Shown one piece after another: positions 703 to 10,363 of a stretch of 64,000 nt of DNA (position 1 is its first letter; each line of letters begins with the position of its first letter). Location: positions 4,322,501-4,386,500 of the forward strand of contig NZ_JQNJ01000001.1 of the NCBI RefSeq assembly GCF_000745185.1, read 5' to 3'. This stretch comes from Muricauda sp. MAR_2010_75 (GTDB lineage Bacteria; Bacteroidota; Bacteroidia; Flavobacteriales; Flavobacteriaceae). A program made the translations under genes and the position numbers. A model generated the notes under the pieces. That model was not told the origin of the DNA, did not search any database, and saw nothing but the letters and a program-made list of their open reading frames with translations.

Positions 703-3700
703 TTAATTTACACGCAATACTCCCTGCATAATTCGCCAGTGACCTGGGAATGTGCATATATAAGGATAATCTCCTGCCTTATTCGGCAATTTTATGGTCA
801 ATGTATAACTGCCTCCTGAATTAATTAAAGGCGTTGCGGCGATGACTTCTGGCATTTGGGGTATATATTCCAATTCTTGCCCATTACTGGCCATTGCCAA
901 TTTATCGGCCTCTGCCCCAACTTTATCCTTGGTTCCAGGTTGAACCAGCACCAAATTGTGCTGCATAAAATCTGGATTGTTTAGCACAATCTGAATGGTT
1001 GTGCCTGCCTTGGCGGTAATTAACTCTTTGTCATATTTCATGACGTCCTTCAAGGTGTTCAGGACAATTACCTGATCCACATCCTCAACAACTTCAGTCA
1101 CTGCAGAAGTATCTAAAATTTCCAGCTTTCCATTTCTGAATGAGGTTGTTCTGGAATAGAATAAATCAGGGTAATCGGCCACTTTATCGCCGCCGGTACT
1201 TCTTTCAAAACCAACCCTTACACCACGTTCTTTTTCTAAATCATTTTTGAAAAGACCCGCCGTCTGGGTCGAACCAACTTCCTCTCCATCAATTACCAAC
1301 TTCATTACACCGTCTTCCTGTAATCCTGCCACAAACTTGAAGTTCTTGGGAAGGCGCTCGGAATTCACCACTTTGTACGTTCTGCCATTTTGGTTGATGA
1401 CAAAATTTAATTGTCCATCCATAAAAAACAGTCCATACCCATTTCTTCGGTTTCCTTGCACCATAATAAGCCCTGAATGCTCTTCGTCTGAATTATTTTC
1501 TATGTCACCAGAAACAATCCATTCTCTATTGGCTACTTCCGGAGTTAATGGCACTGCACGTCTCCATGTTCTACGAAGTTGCACCATATTTAGTTGGGAA
1601 CCATAGGCCAATTTCTGGGCTAGGGAGGCTTCCATTAGAGAAGGATTCTGCTTGTACCCCCTTTTGGCAAACTCAGCTTTAAATCCGTTTGCATTTAATT
1701 TGCCTGAAATGGTCAAGGCATGTTTCAGCCACATATCGCTGAAGTTTTCTTCCTTCTCGGCCATATCTACAAGCACCTTTCCAATAGAATCGGATGGAGG
1801 CAATTCGGTTGTGAATAGTGCAGCTGCCAATCGTACCCGGTAATCCTCATCTGCAAATAGTCCAGCTTTCTCAATGGCTTCAAAGGTTTCCACGGTTTTA
1901 GGCAACACCTGAATGGCTGCACGTCTAACCCCCGCAGTAGGATGAGACAATGCTTTTGTAGCCACATCCAATGCCTCTTGGTTAGAACCATCAAAGGCCC
2001 CTAATCCATGGAGTGTCCACAAGGCATGAATAGCTGGAGCATTGATTCCTACTTCGTCAACGGATTCATCTTGTACCAACGTATACAATTCTGGAAATAC
2101 AGAGGTATCCCCATTTTCCACCAACAATCGTTGTGCATGCGTTCTCCAAAGCATATTGTTGTTGGACAAGGCTTTTACAAGACCTTGTTTATCGTCTTTG
2201 TCCAATTCAAGGGTATTATGCTTGTCATGCCCTTTGTAAACTACGCGATAAATTCGTCCTCGAGAACGGTCTCTCAAGGGGTTCACATACGCATTTCCGT
2301 ACCCATTCATGGCCTCTACCCCGGCAGAACTAGGAGAAGGTGTTGGATTATGCTGAATAATAAAATTGTACCAATCGGCTATCCAAACAGCTCCATCAGG
2401 TCCTACTTCAGCTTGAATGGGCCCTGCCCATTCATCACCACTTGTCAATAAGTTCCAACCATCGCCATCTTCTATAAAGCCAGCTCCTTCTTGCTTTAAA
2501 CGTACTCTGTGCACCAATCTACCTGTCGGTTCGGTAACGAATGCCACACTGTTCCAATACGATTTGGGAAAGTCCCTTGCTGTATATAAACTATGACCCG
2601 CTGCTGCGGTAAACCCTCCCATGACATCTACCTGTCGAAGGGCCTTGATAGCATAGCGCATATCGTAATGGGCGTCTAATTTGGTAACACCGTTTTCGTC
2701 GATGTCCGCTTTTTCGAAATATCTTTTTGGAATCCCAAAAAATGCGGTGTGCGTATTATTCGCTGTGGAAATGAAGACATCAAATTCTTCAGAGAAACCT
2801 AGTCCCCATGTGTTATTTGAAGCATCTCCTAAATGCTCAATGTCCCTCGTATTTGGGTCAAATTTGTACATGGCATTGTCAAACTTCAAAGAATCCGCGC
2901 TACCTTGCTGGGACACGCCTTCAAATCCGGAATAGCCTACCATACCCCAAATATCGTTGTCCAAACCATATCGTAAATTTGAAGATTGGGCATGGGTATC
3001 ATGTTTTCCCCACCCAGGTAAAATATATTCCCGTACATCAGCCACATCGTCGCCATCTGTGTCCTTAAGAAACAGAAATGATGGGGACTGGCTAACAATG
3101 ATACCGCCATTGGAGAATACAAAACTGGTAGGAATGTTCAATTTTTCGGCGAAGGTGGTCACTTTATCTGCTTTACCGTCACCATCGGTATCTTCCAATA
3201 TTTTAATACGGTCATCCCCTAGGTCATCATCCTTTACTTCGTTGGGATAATCAACCGTTTCAATGACCCAGAGTCTTCCTTTCTCATCCCAATTCATATA
3301 CATTGGGTTATAAAGCATAGGTTCTGATGCAAATAGCTTGAGCTCAAACCCAACGGGAACTTGCATCAAGGACATCGACTCTTCTGGAGTCAAAGGTTGT
3401 TGTACCCGCGGTGCAGGGTCTCTTTTTTCGTAGTTCGGCACAAGTCCATCGGTGTATTCAGGATCAGCTATAGCTACCTTTTCAAGGTTTGCTTTGGCTT
3501 CCTCCCCAACGGACCACATAATCCCATTTTTTACCAAGTCTAAAAAGCCTTGCGTATTGAATGTTACCTCATCATGGCCATAAGCGGTATAAAACACTCG
3601 ACCTTCTCCATAAGGCCTAATCCAAGTATAAGGTTCATGGTGGTCACCTTCAACACGTTCTGTCAACACCTCAATATTGGGTGAAATTTTATCGTGAACA

Positions 3701-4224
3701 TAGGTTTCATCATACGTTTTAAAGTCTGTAATTCCTTGCATCACCTCATGCTCTGGCTTTAGGACAACGTTTTGAATGGTATCGTACTCATGACTTTTGA
3801 ACTGACCACCTATCATCTCAACGACCTCATCGCTATTTCTAAAACAAAAAGAGGCGCAATGCAGTGCAATCAAACCTTTGCCACCCCTAACATAACCCAA
3901 CAAAGCTTCTGCCTGGGGATCGGTAATTGAGTCATGATTTGCATAAACCACCAACCCCGCATAGTGAGAAAGGTTTTCTTTATTTAGATCGTCTGGATCA
4001 TCGGTAAATGAGATATTGATGCCACTTCTAAAGTATTCCCTCGATAGAATACTTGCCAACTTTTCAGAGTTGTGATGGGAATTCGTCTTATGACCCAAAA
4101 AGAGAATCTCCATTCTTTTTGGAGTATTGTCCGTGGTGTTGGATTTCTTGCTGTTACATGAGCTAATCATGACGCAAAGTGAGACCACAATGGCTAACCT
4201 TAGCCAACCTTTTTTATTCTGCAT
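703..4224 (-). CDS. Lipoprotein with ThuA, dehydrogenase-like propeller, HEAT and blue-copper domains
   Basis: About 1173 residues, counted from the ATG at 4224. An upstream ATG at 4272 is possible but would put 16 polar residues before the signal. The signal ends in a lipobox (MISSC), so the protein is probably anchored in the envelope. Domains in order: ThuA-like (glutamine-amidotransferase fold) about 40-255; a six-blade propeller of the PVC-type membrane-bound dehydrogenase family about 290-665; HEAT-like helical repeats about 680-840; a LamG-like jelly roll about 915-1040; and a C-terminal plastocyanin/auracyanin domain. Copper ligands are visible as His in MQHNL, then Cys, His and Met in YICTFPGHWRIMQ at the end. 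No CxxCH haem site is present, unlike many relatives. ThuA proteins are linked to sugar (3-keto-glycoside, trehalose) metabolism. Inference: a sugar oxidoreductase passing electrons to copper. Confidence 0.85.
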   Translation of the reverse strand: MQNKKGWLRLAIVVSLCVMISSCNSKKSNTTDNTPKRMEILFLGHKTNSHHNSEKLASILSREYFRSGINISFTDDPDDLNKENLSHYAGLVVYANHDSITDPQAEALLGYVRGGKGLIALHCASFCFRNSDEVVEMIGGQFKSHEYDTIQNVVLKPEHEVMQGITDFKTYDETYVHDKISPNIEVLTERVEGDHHEPYTWIRPYGEGRVFYTAYGHDEVTFNTQGFLDLVKNGIMWSVGEEAKANLEKVAIADPEYTDGLVPNYEKRDPAPRVQQPLTPEESMSLMQVPVGFELKLFASEPMLYNPMYMNWDEKGRLWVIETVDYPNEVKDDDLGDDRIKILEDTDGDGKADKVTTFAEKLNIPTSFVFSNGGIIVSQSPSFLFLKDTDGDDVADVREYILPGWGKHDTHAQSSNLRYGLDNDIWGMVGYSGFEGVSQQGSADSLKFDNAMYKFDPNTRDIEHLGDASNNTWGLGFSEEFDVFISTANNTHTAFFGIPKRYFEKADIDENGVTKLDAHYDMRYAIKALRQVDVMGGFTAAAGHSLYTARDFPKSYWNSVAFVTEPTGRLVHRVRLKQEGAGFIEDGDGWNLLTSGDEWAGPIQAEVGPDGAVWIADWYNFIIQHNPTPSPSSAGVEAMNGYGNAYVNPLRDRSRGRIYRVVYKGHDKHNTLELDKDDKQGLVKALSNNNMLWRTHAQRLLVENGDTSVFPELYTLVQDESVDEVGINAPAIHALWTLHGLGAFDGSNQEALDVATKALSHPTAGVRRAAIQVLPKTVETFEAIEKAGLFADEDYRVRLAAALFTTELPPSDSIGKVLVDMAEKEENFSDMWLKHALTISGKLNANGFKAEFAKRGYKQNPSLMEASLAQKLAYGSQLNMVQLRRTWRRAVPLTPEVANREWIVSGDIENNSDEEHSGLIMVQGNRRNGYGLFFMDGQLNFVINQNGRTYKVVNSERLPKNFKFVAGLQEDGVMKLVIDGEEVGSTQTAGLFKNDLEKERGVRVGFERSTGGDKVADYPDLFYSRTTSFRNGKLEILDTSAVTEVVEDVDQVIVLNTLKDVMKYDKELITAKAGTTIQIVLNNPDFMQHNLVLVQPGTKDKVGAEADKLAMASNGQELEYIPQMPEVIAATPLINSGGSYTLTIKLPNKAGDYPYICTFPGHWRIMQGVLRVN

Positions 4225-4794
4225 TAGTTGATAATTGGTTATTACTTGATTTTGATTTGATTTAACTCGCAAAATGAACCGTCTAAAATAAAGTGTTCAC
4301 TTCACACTTTTTAAAAATAAGGTTTTTTTTCAAATTGTCATTTATTTCACTGGTTAGTGATCAAAAAAACATTCTTTTTAGTATAAGATTAACATATTTG
4401 AGGTTATACGTTACTTCTTCAATAACCTTAACAATTCAAATAGGCTATGGTCTCAATGTATGCTCTCGATAAGCTGTAGAGTTACTTTTTCTTGGAAACA
4501 ACATAATACAAATACTGCTTCATGACTTAAGGTTTTGATTTCTATACAAGTACTAAAATCGGTAGGCTCTCCCCTGAGGATAATTCCACAGTCAACCATA
4601 CCGCTCACAGGTTAAACCTTGGGATTATTAAGAAAAATTTGATTGATAAACGGTGGATGTAAAAAACACCCTATTAAACTTTTTGATTGGTTGCAAAAAC
4701 AAAAAAGGTAATTTCAATAAGCTTTTTCAAAACACACACGTCTTTCAATTAAATTTGAGCGTACTTTTCTAACATTGATTTATAAAAAAATAAA
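4225..4794. other. Divergent intergenic region
   Basis: About 570 bases with no convincing gene, lying between the minus-strand ThuA lipoprotein and the plus-strand Crp/Fnr gene, so it must hold both promoters. A flavobacterial -7-like element TAAATTTG lies at 4750-4757, upstream of the Crp/Fnr start. The middle (about 4380-4680) shows no feature I can name. Confidence 0.5.
4290..4360. promoter_or_regulatory. Two inverted repeats upstream of the ThuA lipoprotein
   Basis: AAAGTGT (4290-4296) pairs with ACACTTT (4304-4310) across 7 bases, and TCACT (4347-4351) pairs with AGTGA (4356-4360) across 4 bases. Both share the GTGA/TCAC core. They could be operators or mRNA structure. No regulator can be assigned. 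Confidence 0.3.
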
Positions 4795-5364
4795 ATGAAC
4801 CACCTCATCTTCAATATAGAAAGAACATTTAAGGCTTCGGAGGAAGAATTGTCCACACTTAGAAACATCATGAAGGAAGAACACCTTAATAGAAATGAAA
4901 TCTTTCTAAAATCTGGACAGGTATGCAATAGGTTGGCCTTTATATCAAAGGGATCTATGCGACTGTTTTATGATTCGCCGGACAAAGAGGTTTGCAACGA
5001 TTTTTTCTTCGAAAATTCCATGGTAGGTTCACTGGCCAGTTTTTTGTCCCAAACCCCTTCCTTGGTCAACATTGCAGCAATAGAAAATTGCACGTTTTAT
5101 GTACTCCACCGTGATGATGTGATGGAATTGATATCAAAATATGACTCCCTCAAAAAAATGGGGGACATCATTGTACAGGAACAACTACTACGGGCCGAAA
5201 AAAGGGAGGCGGCATTACTGAGTGTAAGCCCAGAGGAACGGTTTCAAAACTTGATGGAAGAACATCCCAAAATCTTTAAAAGGATTCCACTCCGATATGT
5301 TGCCAGCTATTTGGGCATAACACCGGAAACCCTGAGCCGGTACCGAACCAAGTTTTTAGTTTGA
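4795..5364 (+). CDS. Crp/Fnr-family transcription regulator
   Basis: 189 residues: a cyclic-nucleotide-binding-like beta-barrel (about 20-120), a long dimer helix, and a short C-terminal helix-turn-helix (about 150-189). The recognition helix reads PETLSRYRTK. The E-x-x-S-R pattern matches the residues with which FNR contacts TTGAT, whereas CRP has R-E-x-x-G-R. No cysteine cluster typical of an oxygen-sensing Fe-S FNR is seen, so the signal is unknown. A box of the FNR consensus (TTGATTTGAATCAA) lies 6 bases after the stop, in front of the next gene, so it may control its neighbours directly. A second gene of the same type lies at 9172-9711. Confidence 0.88.
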   Translation: MNHLIFNIERTFKASEEELSTLRNIMKEEHLNRNEIFLKSGQVCNRLAFISKGSMRLFYDSPDKEVCNDFFFENSMVGSLASFLSQTPSLVNIAAIENCTFYVLHRDDVMELISKYDSLKKMGDIIVQEQLLRAEKREAALLSVSPEERFQNLMEEHPKIFKRIPLRYVASYLGITPETLSRYRTKFLV

Positions 5365-5370
5365 CTTTTC

Positions 5371-5414
5371 TTGATTTGAATCAATTGAAAAAATAGATTG
5401 CTTTCCTTTCTTTG
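5371..5414 (+). promoter_or_regulatory. FNR-type box and -7 element, VOC-cupin operon
   Basis: TTGATTTGAATCAA at 5371-5384 is a perfect palindrome and an exact match to TTGAT-N4-ATCAA. After 22 bases comes TTTCTTTG (5407-5414), close to the flavobacterial -7 consensus TAnnTTTG. A start near 5419 would put the box at about -41.5, the classic class II activator position, with a leader of about 20 bases before the ATG at 5439. The same layout recurs at 7677 and 9725. Confidence 0.7.
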
Positions 5415-5438
5415 TTCAAGGTGATCAAATAATTACAG

Positions 5439-5837
5439 ATGAAACTTGAACATGTGGCCATTTGGACATCCAATCTTGAAAAGCTCAAGGAATACTATTC
5501 CACTTATTTTTCTGGAATACCCAATGAGAAATACACAAATCCAAAGACCCATTTTCAAAGCTACTTTTTGACGTTTGAGTCTGGAGCGCGGTTGGAATTG
5601 ATGTCCATGCCCGAGATTCCAAAAAACAGTAACGATACAGTTATCAAGCAACATTTGGGAATCATACATCTTGCCTTTGGGGTTGAATCCAAAAGTGAAG
5701 TGGACCAAATGGCCAAAAAACTGGAAAACAAAGGATTTCCAATTCTTAAGGGCCCTAGGATTACAGGTGATGGCTATTATGAATTTGAAACTTTGGACCC
5801 AGACAACAATAGAATTGAAGTTACCACATTAGCGTAA
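5439..5837 (+). CDS. VOC-family (glyoxalase/bleomycin-resistance fold) protein
   Basis: 132 residues with the paired beta-alpha-beta-beta-beta modules of the vicinal-oxygen-chelate fold, covering the whole protein. The four expected metal ligands can be read: H5, E53, H77 and E127. It is therefore probably an active metal-dependent enzyme such as a lyase, isomerase or dioxygenase; its substrate cannot be told from sequence. It is the first gene of a tight run (19, 26 and 3 bases between genes) with a cupin, a STAS-like protein and an acetyltransferase, all behind an FNR-type box. Cytoplasmic, with no signal peptide. Confidence 0.85.
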   Translation: MKLEHVAIWTSNLEKLKEYYSTYFSGIPNEKYTNPKTHFQSYFLTFESGARLELMSMPEIPKNSNDTVIKQHLGIIHLAFGVESKSEVDQMAKKLENKGFPILKGPRITGDGYYEFETLDPDNNRIEVTTLA

Positions 5838-5856
5838 ATCAAATAATCGAAATAAA

Positions 5857-6345
5857 ATGAAATCACTATCAAAAAACGAACAGTTACTGATACTGACCGA
5901 TGTTATCAAGGTCTTGGTAAACAATACCGAAACGGAAAACAAATATGCCATATTTGAGGAAAGCGTACCTCCCCTGGGCGGTCCACCACCCCACTCCCAT
6001 CCAGATGAAGAAGTTTTTTATGTGTTGGAAGGAGAGTTTGAATTTGTCAAGAACGATTTAAACAATCCATTCAAGGCACTTCCCGGAAGCGTTGTCCACG
6101 TGCCCTCCAATGAAGTACATACCTTTAAAAACGTAGGCAAGACGCCCGGTAAAATGGTCGTTATACTTACCCCCGGTAACTTACTCGATTATTTTAGGGC
6201 AATCGGGGACCCTATAACCACTAATTCTGATTATCCAGATTTGGAAAAAGCACCGGACTTCTCAAAATTAAATGTGGAGAGGGCATTTAAACATGCCGAG
6301 GAGCACAACGTTCAATTTATAGTACCGAAAATCGCCAAAAACTAA
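5857..6345 (+). CDS. Cupin-domain protein
   Basis: 162 residues with one central cupin barrel (about 30-115). The metal set is complete: H46 and H48 in HSHPDEE, E52, and H88 in motif 2. The C-terminal 45 residues are helical and charged. Cupins of this size (quercetinase-like or sensor-like) bind a divalent metal and may act as dioxygenases or binding proteins; the substrate is unknown. It has no signal peptide. It lies 19 bases after the VOC gene, and two predicted metalloenzymes side by side suggest small-molecule oxidation or detoxification. Confidence 0.85.
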   Translation: MKSLSKNEQLLILTDVIKVLVNNTETENKYAIFEESVPPLGGPPPHSHPDEEVFYVLEGEFEFVKNDLNNPFKALPGSVVHVPSNEVHTFKNVGKTPGKMVVILTPGNLLDYFRAIGDPITTNSDYPDLEKAPDFSKLNVERAFKHAEEHNVQFIVPKIAKN

Positions 6346-6371
6346 TTATCTTACTCTTTATTTTCTTTAGG

Positions 6372-6812
6372 ATGATAGTTGTTGACCTTATTAGAAATGA
6401 CGCTGGGGAAATCTATGCCAAATTAAGCTATGAGCCCATAAAAAACTATCTTTTGATGAAATGGATAGGATTTTGTTCGGAAGATGAGGTCAAGGCAGCT
6501 TCCATGAAAATGTATGAATGGCAAAAAAGAGAAGGATTCAAGAAAGGCTGTAAATTCCACGTACACGACACCAAGGAAATAGAAGGGGCCTGGGCAGGAC
6601 TTGTAGATTGGATCAGCAACTATTTTTTCCCTCTTAATTATGAGTTTGGCCTTAGATACAACATCAGTATCATTTCGCCAGACCTGTTTTCCAAACTTTC
6701 TTCAATAGAGTTACAAAAAAAGAGCAATGATATGGTTACCACCGTGTTGTGCGAGACCATTTCACAGGCCGAAGCATGGTTGACCAAACGCTATGCCGAA
6801 CTTTCCCATTAA
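6372..6812 (+). CDS. SpoIIAA/STAS-like conserved hypothetical protein
   Basis: 146 residues, no signal peptide or membrane segment. Alternating short strands and amphipathic helices (for example YLLMKWIGFCSEDEVKAA near residues 26-43, and a final helix AEAWLTKRY) resemble the SpoIIAA-like/STAS proteins common in Bacteroidota, where the function is mostly unknown. It sits 26 bases after the cupin gene and 3 bases before the acetyltransferase gene, so it is clearly part of that operon. I do not assign a function. Confidence 0.6.
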   Translation: MIVVDLIRNDAGEIYAKLSYEPIKNYLLMKWIGFCSEDEVKAASMKMYEWQKREGFKKGCKFHVHDTKEIEGAWAGLVDWISNYFFPLNYEFGLRYNISIISPDLFSKLSSIELQKKSNDMVTTVLCETISQAEAWLTKRYAELSH

Positions 6813-6815
6813 AAA

Positions 6816-7637
6816 ATGCAAATAAGAAGTTTAAGGGATACCCCCTTCAATGATATCTTGGAATGCTTTTTCCAAGCGTTCCATAAGTATTATGTTGATA
6901 TATCCAAGGACCGTGAATATTACAAAGAGCGTTGGAGGATGGCCAATGTAAATTATGGATTGTCCTTTGGTGCTTTTCACGGTAATAAATTGGTGGGCTT
7001 TGTTCTTAATGCCGTTGATTGCAGGGAAGGACTGCTCACCGCTTACAATGCCTGTACTGGGGTTCTTCCCGAGTTTAGGGGCAAGAAATTGGTGAAATCC
7101 ATTTATGACCATGCCATTCCCATACTAAAGGCAAATGAAGTAGAGCGATGCACCCTTGAAGTAATCACCAAGAATGAAAAAGCCATTAAAGCATATGGAA
7201 ACGTTGGTTTTGAAATCTCCAAACGTTATAAATGCTTTAATGGCACATTGCCCAACAAGACTTCAGGAGATCATCAAGTTTGCGAAGGTAGCTTCACAAC
7301 TGAAGTGTTGATCATGCTGTTAAACCAAAACTGGTATTCTTGGGAAAATCACGCATTGACCATTACCAAAGGAAACTACAGATATTTTGAAATTCTGTTT
7401 CAGGGCACTACGGAATCATATTTTATAATAGCACCCAGCGGTGGGTATGTTGCCCAGATGGAAGTTCTGGTGGAAAACCCAGGTGCATGGAATCGACTAT
7501 TTTCCGGACTGGTACAAATTGCAGGCCAAATCAAGATCAACAACGTTGATGAAAGGTTGACGGATAAAATCACCTACCTCCAAAATGCCGGACTCACAAA
7601 TTACCTAGATCAGTACGAAATGCAAATGGTCCTCTAA
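6816..7637 (+). CDS. GNAT-family N-acetyltransferase
   Basis: 273 residues. The N-terminal half (about 1-145) is a GNAT fold. The acetyl-CoA pyrophosphate loop is read as the R/Q-x-x-G-x-x-K pattern in PEFRGKKLVKSI (about 90-100), followed by LEVITKNEKAIKAYGNVGF, the usual 'N-x-A-x-x-x-Y-x-x-x-G-F' stretch. The C-terminal half (about 160-273) is a second, GNAT-like domain with a degenerate CoA site. It starts 3 bases after the previous stop, so translation is probably coupled. The acceptor is unknown. Confidence 0.82.
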   Translation: MQIRSLRDTPFNDILECFFQAFHKYYVDISKDREYYKERWRMANVNYGLSFGAFHGNKLVGFVLNAVDCREGLLTAYNACTGVLPEFRGKKLVKSIYDHAIPILKANEVERCTLEVITKNEKAIKAYGNVGFEISKRYKCFNGTLPNKTSGDHQVCEGSFTTEVLIMLLNQNWYSWENHALTITKGNYRYFEILFQGTTESYFIIAPSGGYVAQMEVLVENPGAWNRLFSGLVQIAGQIKINNVDERLTDKITYLQNAGLTNYLDQYEMQMVL

Positions 7638-7676
7638 ACTGATAGTGTCCAACCAAGTTTCAGCCAAGCGCATCTC

Positions 7677-7720
7677 TTGACCCAAATCAAGTGTTTTTTG
7701 AAGCATTACAGGCAATTTTG
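7677..7720 (+). promoter_or_regulatory. FNR-type box and -7 element, amidohydrolase gene
   Basis: TTGACCCAAATCAA (7677-7690) matches TTGAT-N4-ATCAA with one mismatch. CAATTTTG (7713-7720) follows after 22 bases and ends in the TTTG of the -7 consensus. The ATG is at 7740. The spacing is identical to that of the boxes at 5371 and 9725. Confidence 0.6.
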
Positions 7721-7739
7721 ACCTCATAAATCAAAAAGC

Positions 7740-9107
7740 ATGAGTACAAGAAAAATTCTAATAAAAGGGGGGACCGTTCTCACCTTTCAAAAAGGTTCCT
7801 TGGTCTGTGAGGAACTGGACATTCTAGTGGAAAACGATAAAATTTCCAATATTGAGAAGAACATTTCAATACCAGATGTTGAGGAAATTTCTGCAAACGG
7901 AATGATTGTAAGCCCCGGGTTGATCGATACCCATCGACATTTGTGGGAAACAGCCTTTAAAGGCACTGCAAGCAATTGGACATTAATGGAGTATTTGAAC
8001 GGGATGCTTGGCGACATTGCTCCTAAGATGGGTCCATTGGATGTCTATCTTGGGAACCTATTGGGTGCACTGGAGGCCATCAACTCAGGAATCACAACAA
8101 TTTTTGATTGGTCACATGTCATGAATTCCGATGAACATGCAGAAGCTGCCATTAGGGCACTACGAGATTCAGGTATACGGGCCAAATTTGGCTATGGAAC
8201 CCCGGGCACCTCCGTATGGGAATGGTTCTACGAGAGTAAAAATCCACATCCCCAAAATGCGTATGACATCAAAAAGAAATATTTCAGTTCAGAAAATGAG
8301 CTTGTTACCATGGCCTTGGCCATAAGGGGGCCCGAGTATTCCGATCTGGAGATTGCCAAACAGGATATAGAAATGGGAAGAGACCTTGGGCTTCAAATTT
8401 CCATGCACATTGGAGGCGGGGTTTTTGGCCCTAAATATAAAGGGGTGCAAAAATTGGATCAACTTGGATTGTTGGGCCCCGATCTAAATTTTGCGCATGG
8501 AAATACCTTAAGTGATGCTGATTTTTGTTTGTTGGCAGATCATGGTTGTACACTCTCCATCACGCCAGAAGTAGAGCTTCAGATGGGATTGGGACTGCCC
8601 GCCACAGGAAAAGCCTTAAAACATAACCTTACCTCCGGTTTGGGGGTAGATGTGGTCACTGCCACTTCGGGGAACCTTTTTGATCAAATGAAAACAGCAT
8701 TACAAACAGAACGCGCCATTCAAAATGAGAAAAACTATAAACGCGGGGACATGTCCCAACAAGTTGCCCTCCGCGATGTGGATATATTTAAAATGGCGAC
8801 CATTGATGGCGCAAAAACGCTCGGCATGGACCAATACATAGGATCACTGGAGGTTGGCAAGCAAGCTGATATAATTCTGATAGATATCCAAAAACTTGGT
8901 ACGGCCCCTTCCTTCAACCCCCTTTCAAGTATGGTTTTATATGCCAAAGAACATGATGTGGATACTGTGATAATTGCTGGAAACATTGTAAAACAAGGTG
9001 GTAAAATAACATATCAAACAACCCACGAACTTATATTGGAATGTCAGGTAAATGCAACTAAGATCATGGGGCAGCTAACATCAAAAACTGCCGTGAAAAA
9101 CCAATAA
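7740..9107 (+). CDS. Amidohydrolase of the TRZ/ATZ (deaminase/chlorohydrolase) group
   Basis: 455 residues: small N-terminal beta-domain, then a TIM barrel, then the beta-domain again. Metal ligands are complete for the mononuclear cytosine-deaminase/ATZ type: H65 and H67 (DTHRH), H223 (SMHIG), H253 (FAHGN) and D304 (GVDVV). The end has the usual ADIILID strand. Known members deaminate or dechlorinate N-heterocycles (S-adenosylhomocysteine, methylthioadenosine, guanine, triazines). There is no signal peptide, so it acts in the cytoplasm. It stands alone behind its own FNR-type promoter and ahead of the second Crp/Fnr gene. The substrate is not predictable here. Confidence 0.9.
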   Translation: MSTRKILIKGGTVLTFQKGSLVCEELDILVENDKISNIEKNISIPDVEEISANGMIVSPGLIDTHRHLWETAFKGTASNWTLMEYLNGMLGDIAPKMGPLDVYLGNLLGALEAINSGITTIFDWSHVMNSDEHAEAAIRALRDSGIRAKFGYGTPGTSVWEWFYESKNPHPQNAYDIKKKYFSSENELVTMALAIRGPEYSDLEIAKQDIEMGRDLGLQISMHIGGGVFGPKYKGVQKLDQLGLLGPDLNFAHGNTLSDADFCLLADHGCTLSITPEVELQMGLGLPATGKALKHNLTSGLGVDVVTATSGNLFDQMKTALQTERAIQNEKNYKRGDMSQQVALRDVDIFKMATIDGAKTLGMDQYIGSLEVGKQADIILIDIQKLGTAPSFNPLSSMVLYAKEHDVDTVIIAGNIVKQGGKITYQTTHELILECQVNATKIMGQLTSKTAVKNQ

Positions 9108-9171
9108 ATGACCTTTTATTTGACCTTGCAATGATTTTTTATCAGATCTTTAGGGGTCAAACCATACAGAA

Positions 9172-9711
9172 ATGAATGATAGGCCCAGTCTTATGGAAGC
9201 CTTAAGATCCAAGGAACACCTTAAGTCGGAAAGGCGGGAATTGTCCCGACATGAATATTTATTGACTCCCGGTGTGGTAGAGAATCACATTTACTATATT
9301 GAAGAAGGCGCTTTGCGCCTTTTTTATGTTTCCAGAAATGCAGAACACGATATTCGATTTGGGTACACGGGCAATATTATTACCTCCTTGGATTCGTTTC
9401 TTTCGGGTAAAACATCACAATATTACATTCAGGCCATCAGAAAAACCATAGTGTACCAAATTCCAAAAATGACATTCTTTGAATTTGTCCGAGGTGATAT
9501 TCAAAGTCTAAAAGAGTATAGTGGATTAATGGAACAGTTGGCATTACAACAGTTGGAACGAGAGATTGATCTATTGACCGAAGCTCCTGTGGAACGGTAC
9601 AATCGTGTGCTTGAAAGAAGCCCCCAGCTTTTTCAGGAAATCCCATTGAAATATATTGCTTCCTATCTTCGGATGACCCCTGAGACCTTGAGCAGACTTC
9701 GGAATAAATAG
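9172..9711 (+). CDS. Second Crp/Fnr-family transcription regulator
   Basis: 179 residues with the same architecture as the gene at 4795: cNMP-binding-like domain (about 15-115) and a C-terminal helix-turn-helix. The recognition helix PETLSRLRNK carries the same E-x-x-S-R residues that read TTGAT in FNR. No N-terminal cysteine cluster. The two regulators share only scattered identity outside the DNA-binding end, so they probably sense different signals but may bind the same boxes. An exact FNR-type palindrome starts 14 bases after its stop. Confidence 0.87.
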   Translation: MNDRPSLMEALRSKEHLKSERRELSRHEYLLTPGVVENHIYYIEEGALRLFYVSRNAEHDIRFGYTGNIITSLDSFLSGKTSQYYIQAIRKTIVYQIPKMTFFEFVRGDIQSLKEYSGLMEQLALQQLEREIDLLTEAPVERYNRVLERSPQLFQEIPLKYIASYLRMTPETLSRLRNK

Positions 9712-9724
9712 GCCTTTGTAATTC

Positions 9725-9768
9725 TTGATTTGAATCAATGCAAATGGACAAGATCCAATCGATATTTG
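9725..9768 (+). promoter_or_regulatory. FNR-type box and -7 element, DinB gene
   Basis: TTGATTTGAATCAA (9725-9738) is identical to the box at 5371, and the match extends to 18 bases (TTCTTGATTTGAATCAAT). After 22 bases comes GATATTTG (9761-9768), one mismatch from TAnnTTTG. The ATG at 9782 leaves a leader of only about 9 bases if the start site is at +41.5 from the box centre. Confidence 0.7.
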
Positions 9769-9781
9769 TAAAAAAAAGGAA

Positions 9782-10363
9782 ATGCACATATCTGTTGATG
9801 AATTATTCGATGAATTGACCGAGCTCACCCAGAAGGCCGTACAATTTGGCTTGGCCCTTAAAAAATTGGACCACTACCAACTTAAGTTCAAGCCAGAACA
9901 AAATGTTTGGAACATCTACGAGTGTTTGGAGCACTTAAACCTTTATGGGGACCATTATTTGGATGAGATTGAAAAAGCGCTGAACAATTCCAAACCCGGT
10001 GATGGGCTTAAAAACTTTAAAGGAAGTATTCTGGGCAATTATTTTGTTAAGATCATTCGTCCCGTTGAAGGTGATATTAAAAAAATGAAAACAACCAAGG
10101 CCATGGATCCCATTGCTTCAGACCTCACTATGGAAACAGTGGACAGATTTATCGCCCAACAAAAAAGATTGCTGGAACTCCTCAACAGAAGCAAGCATTA
10201 CAATTTGAAAAAAATCAAAATAAAAACGACACTTTCCAATTTTTTATACCTCAATCTGGGTGACACCTTACGATTTGTTGTTCATCACAACGAACGTCAT
10301 CTGGTTCAGGCAGGCGAAATGCTTCAAAAGGTTGGAAAAAGTAGGGTGCTCTCTGTCACATAA
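9782..10363 (+). CDS. DinB-family protein
   Basis: 193 residues, predicted four-helix bundle covering the whole chain. The three-histidine metal set of the DinB/YfiT superfamily can be seen: one in YECLEHLNLYGDHYL near residue 48, and a pair in the last helices (FVVHHNERHL, about 165-174). Members are thiol-dependent transferases or damage-inducible proteins. No signal peptide. It follows an FNR-type box and is 59 bases before the serine hydrolase gene, with no terminator seen between them. Confidence 0.82.
   Translation: MHISVDELFDELTELTQKAVQFGLALKKLDHYQLKFKPEQNVWNIYECLEHLNLYGDHYLDEIEKALNNSKPGDGLKNFKGSILGNYFVKIIRPVEGDIKKMKTTKAMDPIASDLTMETVDRFIAQQKRLLELLNRSKHYNLKKIKIKTTLSNFLYLNLGDTLRFVVHHNERHLVQAGEMLQKVGKSRVLSVT

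Follow-up and report, generated by a model that had tools for sequence, protein, structure and literature searches.

Three FNR-type operators beside two short Crp/Fnr genes in Muricauda sp. MAR_2010_75: candidate local activator promoters and a recurrent layout in Bacteroidota

The stretch of the Muricauda sp. MAR_2010_75 genome considered here (the window, 64,000 nucleotides of contig NZ_JQNJ01000001.1) contains two genes for short Crp/Fnr proteins and three FNR-type palindromes, each followed at the same distance by a candidate Bacteroidota -7 element, and this analysis concerns these composite sites, the proteins that may read them and the recurrence of their layout in other Bacteroidota. 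All genes and sites of the locus lie on the forward strand. Regulator 1 (4795–5364; 189 amino acids (aa), PF00027 at E 6.6e-12, C-terminus PETLSRYRTKFLV) is followed by operator box 1 and by a run of genes encoding a VOC/glyoxalase-fold protein (5439–5837; PF00903, E 2.1e-13), a cupin protein (5857–6345; PF07883, E 8.4e-17), a 146-aa protein (6372–6812) and a GNAT acetyltransferase (6816–7637; PF00583, E 4.4e-10). Box 2 then precedes an amidohydrolase of the PRK08204 subfamily (7740–9107; PF01979, with NF006056 at 504 bits against a cut-off of 391), after which come regulator 2 (9172–9711; 179 aa, PF00027 at E 8.4e-9), box 3 and a DinB_2 protein (9782–10363; PF12867, E 6.1e-12), the probable target of box 3. 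An earlier interpretation of this DNA made without database searches (the sequence-only reading) had called the 146-aa protein STAS-like, a label for which Pfam and NCBIfam gave no support, neither matching the protein at E 0.001.

Boxes 1 and 3 both read TTGATTTGAATCAA (5371–5384 and 9725–9738) and agree exactly with TTGAT-N4-ATCAA, while box 2 reads TTGACCCAAATCAA (7677–7690), in which a C replaces a T. Box 1 lies 7 bases past the regulator 1 stop codon, and box 3 stands at the 3' end of the regulator 2 gene. At exactly 22 bases past the boxes are the octamers TTTCTTTG (5407–5414), CAATTTTG (7713–7720) and GATATTTG (9761–9768), which, compared with TAnnTTTG, hold TTTG in all three cases and the A of -11 in two, the third having T; the box coordinates, 22-base spacers and TTTG ends given in the sequence-only reading were all exact. 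A dyad centre at -41.5 is the class II position of CRP and FNR activators. In a study of Flavobacterium psychrophilum, start sites place TAnnTTTG at -12 to -5 (PMC9723704), and with TTTG at -8 to -5 the predicted starts here would be 5419, 7725 and 9773, and dyads would be centred at -41.5 for a spacer of 22 and at -42.5 for a spacer of 23. On these predicted starts, the boxes fall where the sequence-only reading had put them, near -41.5.

Within the window, TTGAY-N4-RTCAA-N26-TTTG has three matches, against a mean of 0.02 and a maximum of one in 100 dinucleotide-preserving shuffles, and throughout the source genome (4.42 Mb, single contig) it matches only these three sites. The looser TTGA-N6-TCAA-N26-TTTG has six genomic matches, three of them the window's sites, and the box alone, TTGAT-N4-ATCAA, has 24. 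Since pairs of box and TTTG at spacers of 24–39 number 22 over the 16 spacers, or about 1.4 per spacer, a single pair is unremarkable; three inside 4.4 kb, all lying a short distance ahead of genes, are remarkable.

Both regulators carry the motif PETLSR near the C-terminus, followed by only a few residues, so that the E-x-x-S-R recognition residues noted in the sequence-only reading are present. The Crp/Fnr architecture of sensor barrel, dimer helix and C-terminal helix-turn-helix (HTH) is found in the PF00027 matches taken together with the predicted structure of regulator 2 (predicted local distance difference test score 93.2, from a 22-sequence alignment), which has barrel strands, a long helix at residues 110–135 and HTH helices at 159–165 and 170–177. 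In this model the protein stops at residue 179, two residues past the last helix, and has no wing. No Pfam HTH family matches either regulator, and the NCBIfam CRP equivalog scores 22.4 bits for regulator 1, against a cut-off of 266, with no match for regulator 2. The only solved chain matching regulator 2 at E 0.01 is the cyclic nucleotide binding regulatory protein 3DN7 of the PDB (E 2.2e-10, residues 22–179), a match of sequence that gives no information on a DNA site, a ligand or a function. Cysteine is absent from regulator 2, and regulator 1 has three scattered ones (44, 67 and 99), with no FNR-like N-terminal cluster; these counts bear out the statement that neither has an iron–sulfur (Fe-S) cysteine cluster, both lacking the four Fe-S cysteines of FNR. 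For a signal other than oxygen, as had been proposed, there are two hints, the lack of Fe-S cysteines and the nature of the target genes.

Relatives of regulator 2 were searched by protein sequence, which imposed no selection on the DNA box, and the 25 loci considered are all that the search gave; they come from Flavobacteriales, Cytophagales, Chitinophagaceae, Saprospiraceae, Flammeovirga and others. In 24 of the 25 the regulator gene has a box at its 3' end (20 with exact TTGAY-N4-RTCAA and four, from Tenacibaculum, with one mismatch), TTTG follows after exactly 22+4 bases in 22 of the 25 (L023 and L039 have TTGC instead), and a DinB gene comes next in 24; the sole locus without the box, L038, is also the sole one without DinB. 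Genes upstream of the regulator vary among most loci. In L040 the regulator frame is interrupted, yet the box and the DinB gene remain; L182 likewise has a Crp/Fnr-like frame broken by a stop in an otherwise ordinary locus. The best named relative of regulator 2 is from F. beolgyonensis (83% identity), and the source genome is close to Flagellimonas.

Three sites like those of the window occur together in three of 60 genus genomes, including the source (G000, G250 and G255, the last probably being the genome of locus L016, from identical site sequences). In L016 and in the G250 locus, L262, box 1 is kept and the counterpart of box 2 is TTGATCCAAATCAA. L262 has no VOC gene and no regulator 2 among frames of at least 90 aa; all three boxes are present with N22 and TTTG, box 1 before the cupin gene and box 3 overlapping the amidohydrolase stop codon before DinB. 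Because the three boxes are kept there without regulator 2, and because the helix of regulator 1 is also PETLSR, regulator 1 is likely to read all three, with regulator 2 probably a reader besides it. The small local regulon envisaged in the sequence-only reading accords with the restriction of the pattern to this locus in the genome and with the recurrence of the three promoters as a set.

The same layout was sought at the 3' ends of short Bacteroidota Crp/Fnr genes by a fixed rule, namely a 5-4-5 dyad with at least 4 of 5 pairs, its centre at -20 to +70 of the gene end and TTTG at a given distance. From 173 hits, 166 were kept as distinct and with at least 100 bases downstream, and 140 remained after removal of similar proteins; of the places at first without a locus, 14 of the 30 in one set and 60 of those in another were fetched for the collection. 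The collection is incomplete, the own-genome regulator L081 having been missed although it shows the layout, and 11 of the 140 regulators, whose C-terminus lacks the motif, belong to neither sub-group and are still counted. The distance from dyad centre to TTTG was 33 (spacer 22) in 53 regulators and 34 (spacer 23) in 16, one or the other in 68 of the 140, whereas 33 other spacer pairs averaged 9.5. Perfect dyads numbered 28 at offset 33, and each of the remaining offsets between 20 and 59 had 0–4. With the DinB type left out, 45 of 106 regulators had spacer 22 or 23 (mean at other spacers 6.7).

Controls within the same loci gave 20 of 468 for the 3' ends of other frames, and perfect dyads at 30 of 140 regulators compared with 3 of those 468 frames. 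Upstream of the regulators, 54 perfect dyads of the same type were found in 140 stretches, only one with TTTG at the spacer-22 offset, which gives no hint of such operators there. A held-out set from unused genomes, dissimilar by shared 4-mers (49 of 54 hits kept, from 64 loci), was examined with the rule unchanged: 21 of 49 regulators had the operator (17 at offset 33 and 5 at 34), 13 with perfect dyads, whereas other spacer pairs gave a mean of 3.8 and at most 8, and other frames 3 of 94. The operator overlaps the regulator stop codon in 37 of the 68 cases, and in 34 of the 68 the stop codon (TGA or TAA) forms operator positions 2–4. A terminator or a coding constraint as the source of the dyads is unlikely on reading the sequences, without a terminator scan, because most of the operator lies past the stop codon and because spacer letters diverge while spacer length holds. 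Among the short Crp/Fnr genes of Bacteroidota that were examined, about half appear to carry a 3'-end operator that would switch on the next gene.

Operator sequence also varies with the recognition helix of the regulator. PETLSR goes mostly with TTGAT or TTGAC and a matching right arm (23 regulators), PQALSR with TTAAC/GTTCA at spacer 23 (6 of 7), PESLSR with TTAAC/GTCAA (3 of 4), RETLSR with GTGAT and ATCAC or GTCAC (2), and RQSLSR with GTCAC and GTGTC or GTGAC (2), while the pairings of TNFSK-type helices with TTGGY/RCCAA and of KYS-type helices with TTGCC and GGCAA or AGCAA were seen again in the held-out set. The RETLSR and PETLSR pairings accord with the known contacts of CRP and FNR. 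Helix residues shared and operator-arm identity correlate at 0.549 over 1984 pairs with sensor identity below 30%, against a mean of -0.004, a standard deviation of 0.071 and a maximum of 0.253 in 1000 shuffles, which ignore relatedness except for the 30% limit on sensor identity. For held-out operators, agreement with the operators of earlier regulators chosen by best helix match was 8.36 of 10 arm positions (6.92 after shuffling, with 0 of 2000 shuffles as high), the poorest predictions being PEFLSR (5.4), one PETLSR (6.3) and PQSLSR (6.5). This match links the operators to the regulators at whose 3' gene ends they lie. A separate case in the source genome is L084, near C1:1518900, where a regulator ending RETLSRLQS is followed downstream by TTGTGACCTACATCACA and then a second TGTGA site, that is, by CRP-like operators after a helix starting R-E, as in Escherichia coli CRP.

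Counted from the published -7 position used above, the 68 promoters have A at -11 in 94% of the 52 with spacer 22 and 100% of the 16 with spacer 23, T at -12 in only 31% and 25%, respectively, and no conserved -33 element; the few T at -12 and the absence of a conserved -33 element fit promoters that would be too weak without an activator. A next frame was found for 66 of the 68 (two gave none), and its start codon lies at most 28 bases past the predicted start in 59. Of these 66 next genes, 20 are of DinB type, recognised by sequence motif without a Pfam scan, and the remaining 46 were scanned with Pfam, which gave 61 families; the matches below are from the first 25 of these. Among the matches listed are DoxX-like proteins (4), carboxymuconolactone decarboxylases (3), glyoxalases (3, one being the window's VOC gene), short-chain dehydrogenases, outer-membrane efflux proteins and NADPH-dependent FMN reductases (2 each), with one match each for old yellow enzyme, YceI, small multidrug resistance, pirin and RidA, among others. 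The downstream genes may be read as mainly concerned with redox and chemical detoxification, a reading that suits peptide deformylase, fatty acid desaturase and M20 peptidase less well.

Taken together, the three sites are very probably activator promoters of class II type whose readers are the neighbouring short Crp/Fnr proteins, and one case of a wider layout. The sequence-only reading, which had proposed FNR-like promoters of this class beside two Crp/Fnr genes, fits what was tested and was too modest, the recurrence across the phylum having been outside its view. Several observations nevertheless weigh against this interpretation. T at -12 occurs in none of the window's three -7 octamers; a smaller bump at offset 39, the next highest single offset, comprises 13 of the 140 regulators at the threshold of at least 4 of 5 pairs; by the rule, 72 of the 140 regulators and 28 of the 49 held-out ones have no such operator; and within the source genome only 5 of 15 examined regulators pass, or 6 of 17 with L081 added. 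Furthermore, across the 60 genus genomes, spacer 22 gives 123 matches against 66.2 per spacer at 24–39, only 1.9-fold, so that the enrichment in relatives expected from the sequence-only reading held strongly at regulator 3' ends and weakly genome-wide. A backward control (6 matches, summed by eye, against 123 at spacer 22 in the same genomes) was discarded as misleading, since other spacers give 66.2 each, and regulator 3' ends were used as evidence instead. A wider scan matched the pattern in 88 of 149 genomes; its 37 backward-control matches, summed by eye, were not used.

Some neighbouring observations stand apart from this argument. TTGAYNTAGGTCAA-N22-TTTG has several sites per genome in G033 (at least 10), G143, G156 and G193, which suggests a larger FNR-like regulon in some Flavobacteriaceae. 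In genome G239, a site of the form TTGAYNTRCATCAACATTTAT..TGAACTTTG (L264:5119–5162) precedes a different DinB-family gene (5186–5755), with no regulator among the listed frames upstream; similar sites recur in many of the 60 genus genomes, and this second DinB gene, with the same geometry, is perhaps controlled in trans. In the window itself, the stretch upstream of the regulon encodes on the reverse strand (703–4272) a 1189-aa protein with ThuA, DUF7133, laminin-G-like and copper-binding (plastocyanin-like) domains.

The L264 arrangement bears on one alternative, in which the operators are genuine FNR-type sites read in trans by another Crp/Fnr protein of the genome: 17 PF00027 proteins are encoded in the source genome, and TTGAY-N4-RTCAA-N22-TTTG-like sites lacking an adjoining regulator do occur in relatives. 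Such control is nonetheless improbable here, given that operator sequence varies with the helix of the regulator whose gene it adjoins, in held-out regulators too, that the pattern is limited to this locus in the source genome, and that the box stands at the regulator gene end in 24 of 25 loci. The neighbouring regulators might instead act on the boxes as repressors, since polymerase could also be blocked from a site immediately before the -7 region. Against this, the dyad centre falls at -41.5 or -42.5 in all 68 cases, on the published start-site positions, with the scarcity of T at -12 and the lack of a conserved -33 element described above. Such features are typical of activator-dependent promoters, as established for CRP and FNR, and repression is accordingly quite improbable, slightly more so than a reader in trans. 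Finally, AT-rich palindromes and TTTG might coincide by chance, as pairs at other spacers are common both in the source genome and in the genus; with 0.02 expected in the window, conservation across Bacteroidota, replication in held-out genomes and the difference between regulator and other-gene 3' ends, this explanation is barely credible.

At the level of sequence, the geometry, its conservation, the excess of such operators where regulator genes end and the correspondence between helix and operator are established; we infer binding, activation rather than repression and a role in detoxification. On the preferred account of local activation, a dimer of the short Crp/Fnr protein would bind TTGAT-N4-ATCAA centred at -41.5 and stand in for the missing -33 element, whereupon the main Bacteroidota sigma factor would start transcription at the nAnnTTTG -7 element; the layout runs from the regulator gene through its operator, which lies at or across the stop codon, and a spacer of 22–23 bases to the -7 element and the target gene. 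To our knowledge, regulators of this short kind are mostly uncharacterised; they most likely act locally as activators, in many cases on genes for redox functions or detoxification, and their signal is perhaps a reactive or toxic small molecule. We consider it fairly probable that a large class of them is self-labelled, in that the helix ends the gene, the operator begins at the stop codon and the target promoter follows. If so, specificity, operator and target would travel as one block, the sites of many uncharacterised regulators could be read from DNA, and a helix-to-operator code could be derived from natural pairs; should about half of the short ones carry a 3' operator, binding site and first target would be readable from sequence and the code testable in bulk. 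In addition, the -41.5 geometry points to a way in which class II activation may be fitted to the unusual promoter of Bacteroidota, and the layout yields candidate inducible one-gene switches for Bacteroidota hosts. Among the papers listed by our literature search, which probably missed part of the work spelled "Crp/Fnr" with a slash, none deals with an operator that ends a Crp/Fnr gene in Bacteroidota.

That a Crp/Fnr protein can activate class II promoters is well known, and FNR of E. coli combines an E-x-x-S-R helix, a TTGAT-N4-ATCAA box and a class II centre of -41.5. The locus described here shares this helix and box and, by prediction from the published start-site data, the centre; it differs from E. 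coli FNR in that its regulators lack the Fe-S cysteine cluster and regulator 2 the wing after the last helix, that a Bacteroidota -7 element replaces the -10 element, that the operator lies at the regulator gene's own end, and that one or few targets are local. Within the phylum, BT4338 of Bacteroides thetaiotaomicron, described as a predicted global sugar regulator, is likewise a Crp-family regulator with a palindromic site; it has many targets, and a 22-bp site of TATGTTnTAnAACATA type lies upstream of the BT4338 gene itself (PMC3878776), in contrast to the 3'-end operator with one neighbour seen here. SiwR of Mycobacterium smegmatis is similarly reported to be a local activator, controlling adjacent DinB/YfiT-like genes that respond to genotoxic stress, although it belongs to the WYL-domain family and responds to genotoxic stress and single-stranded DNA (PMC10693628).

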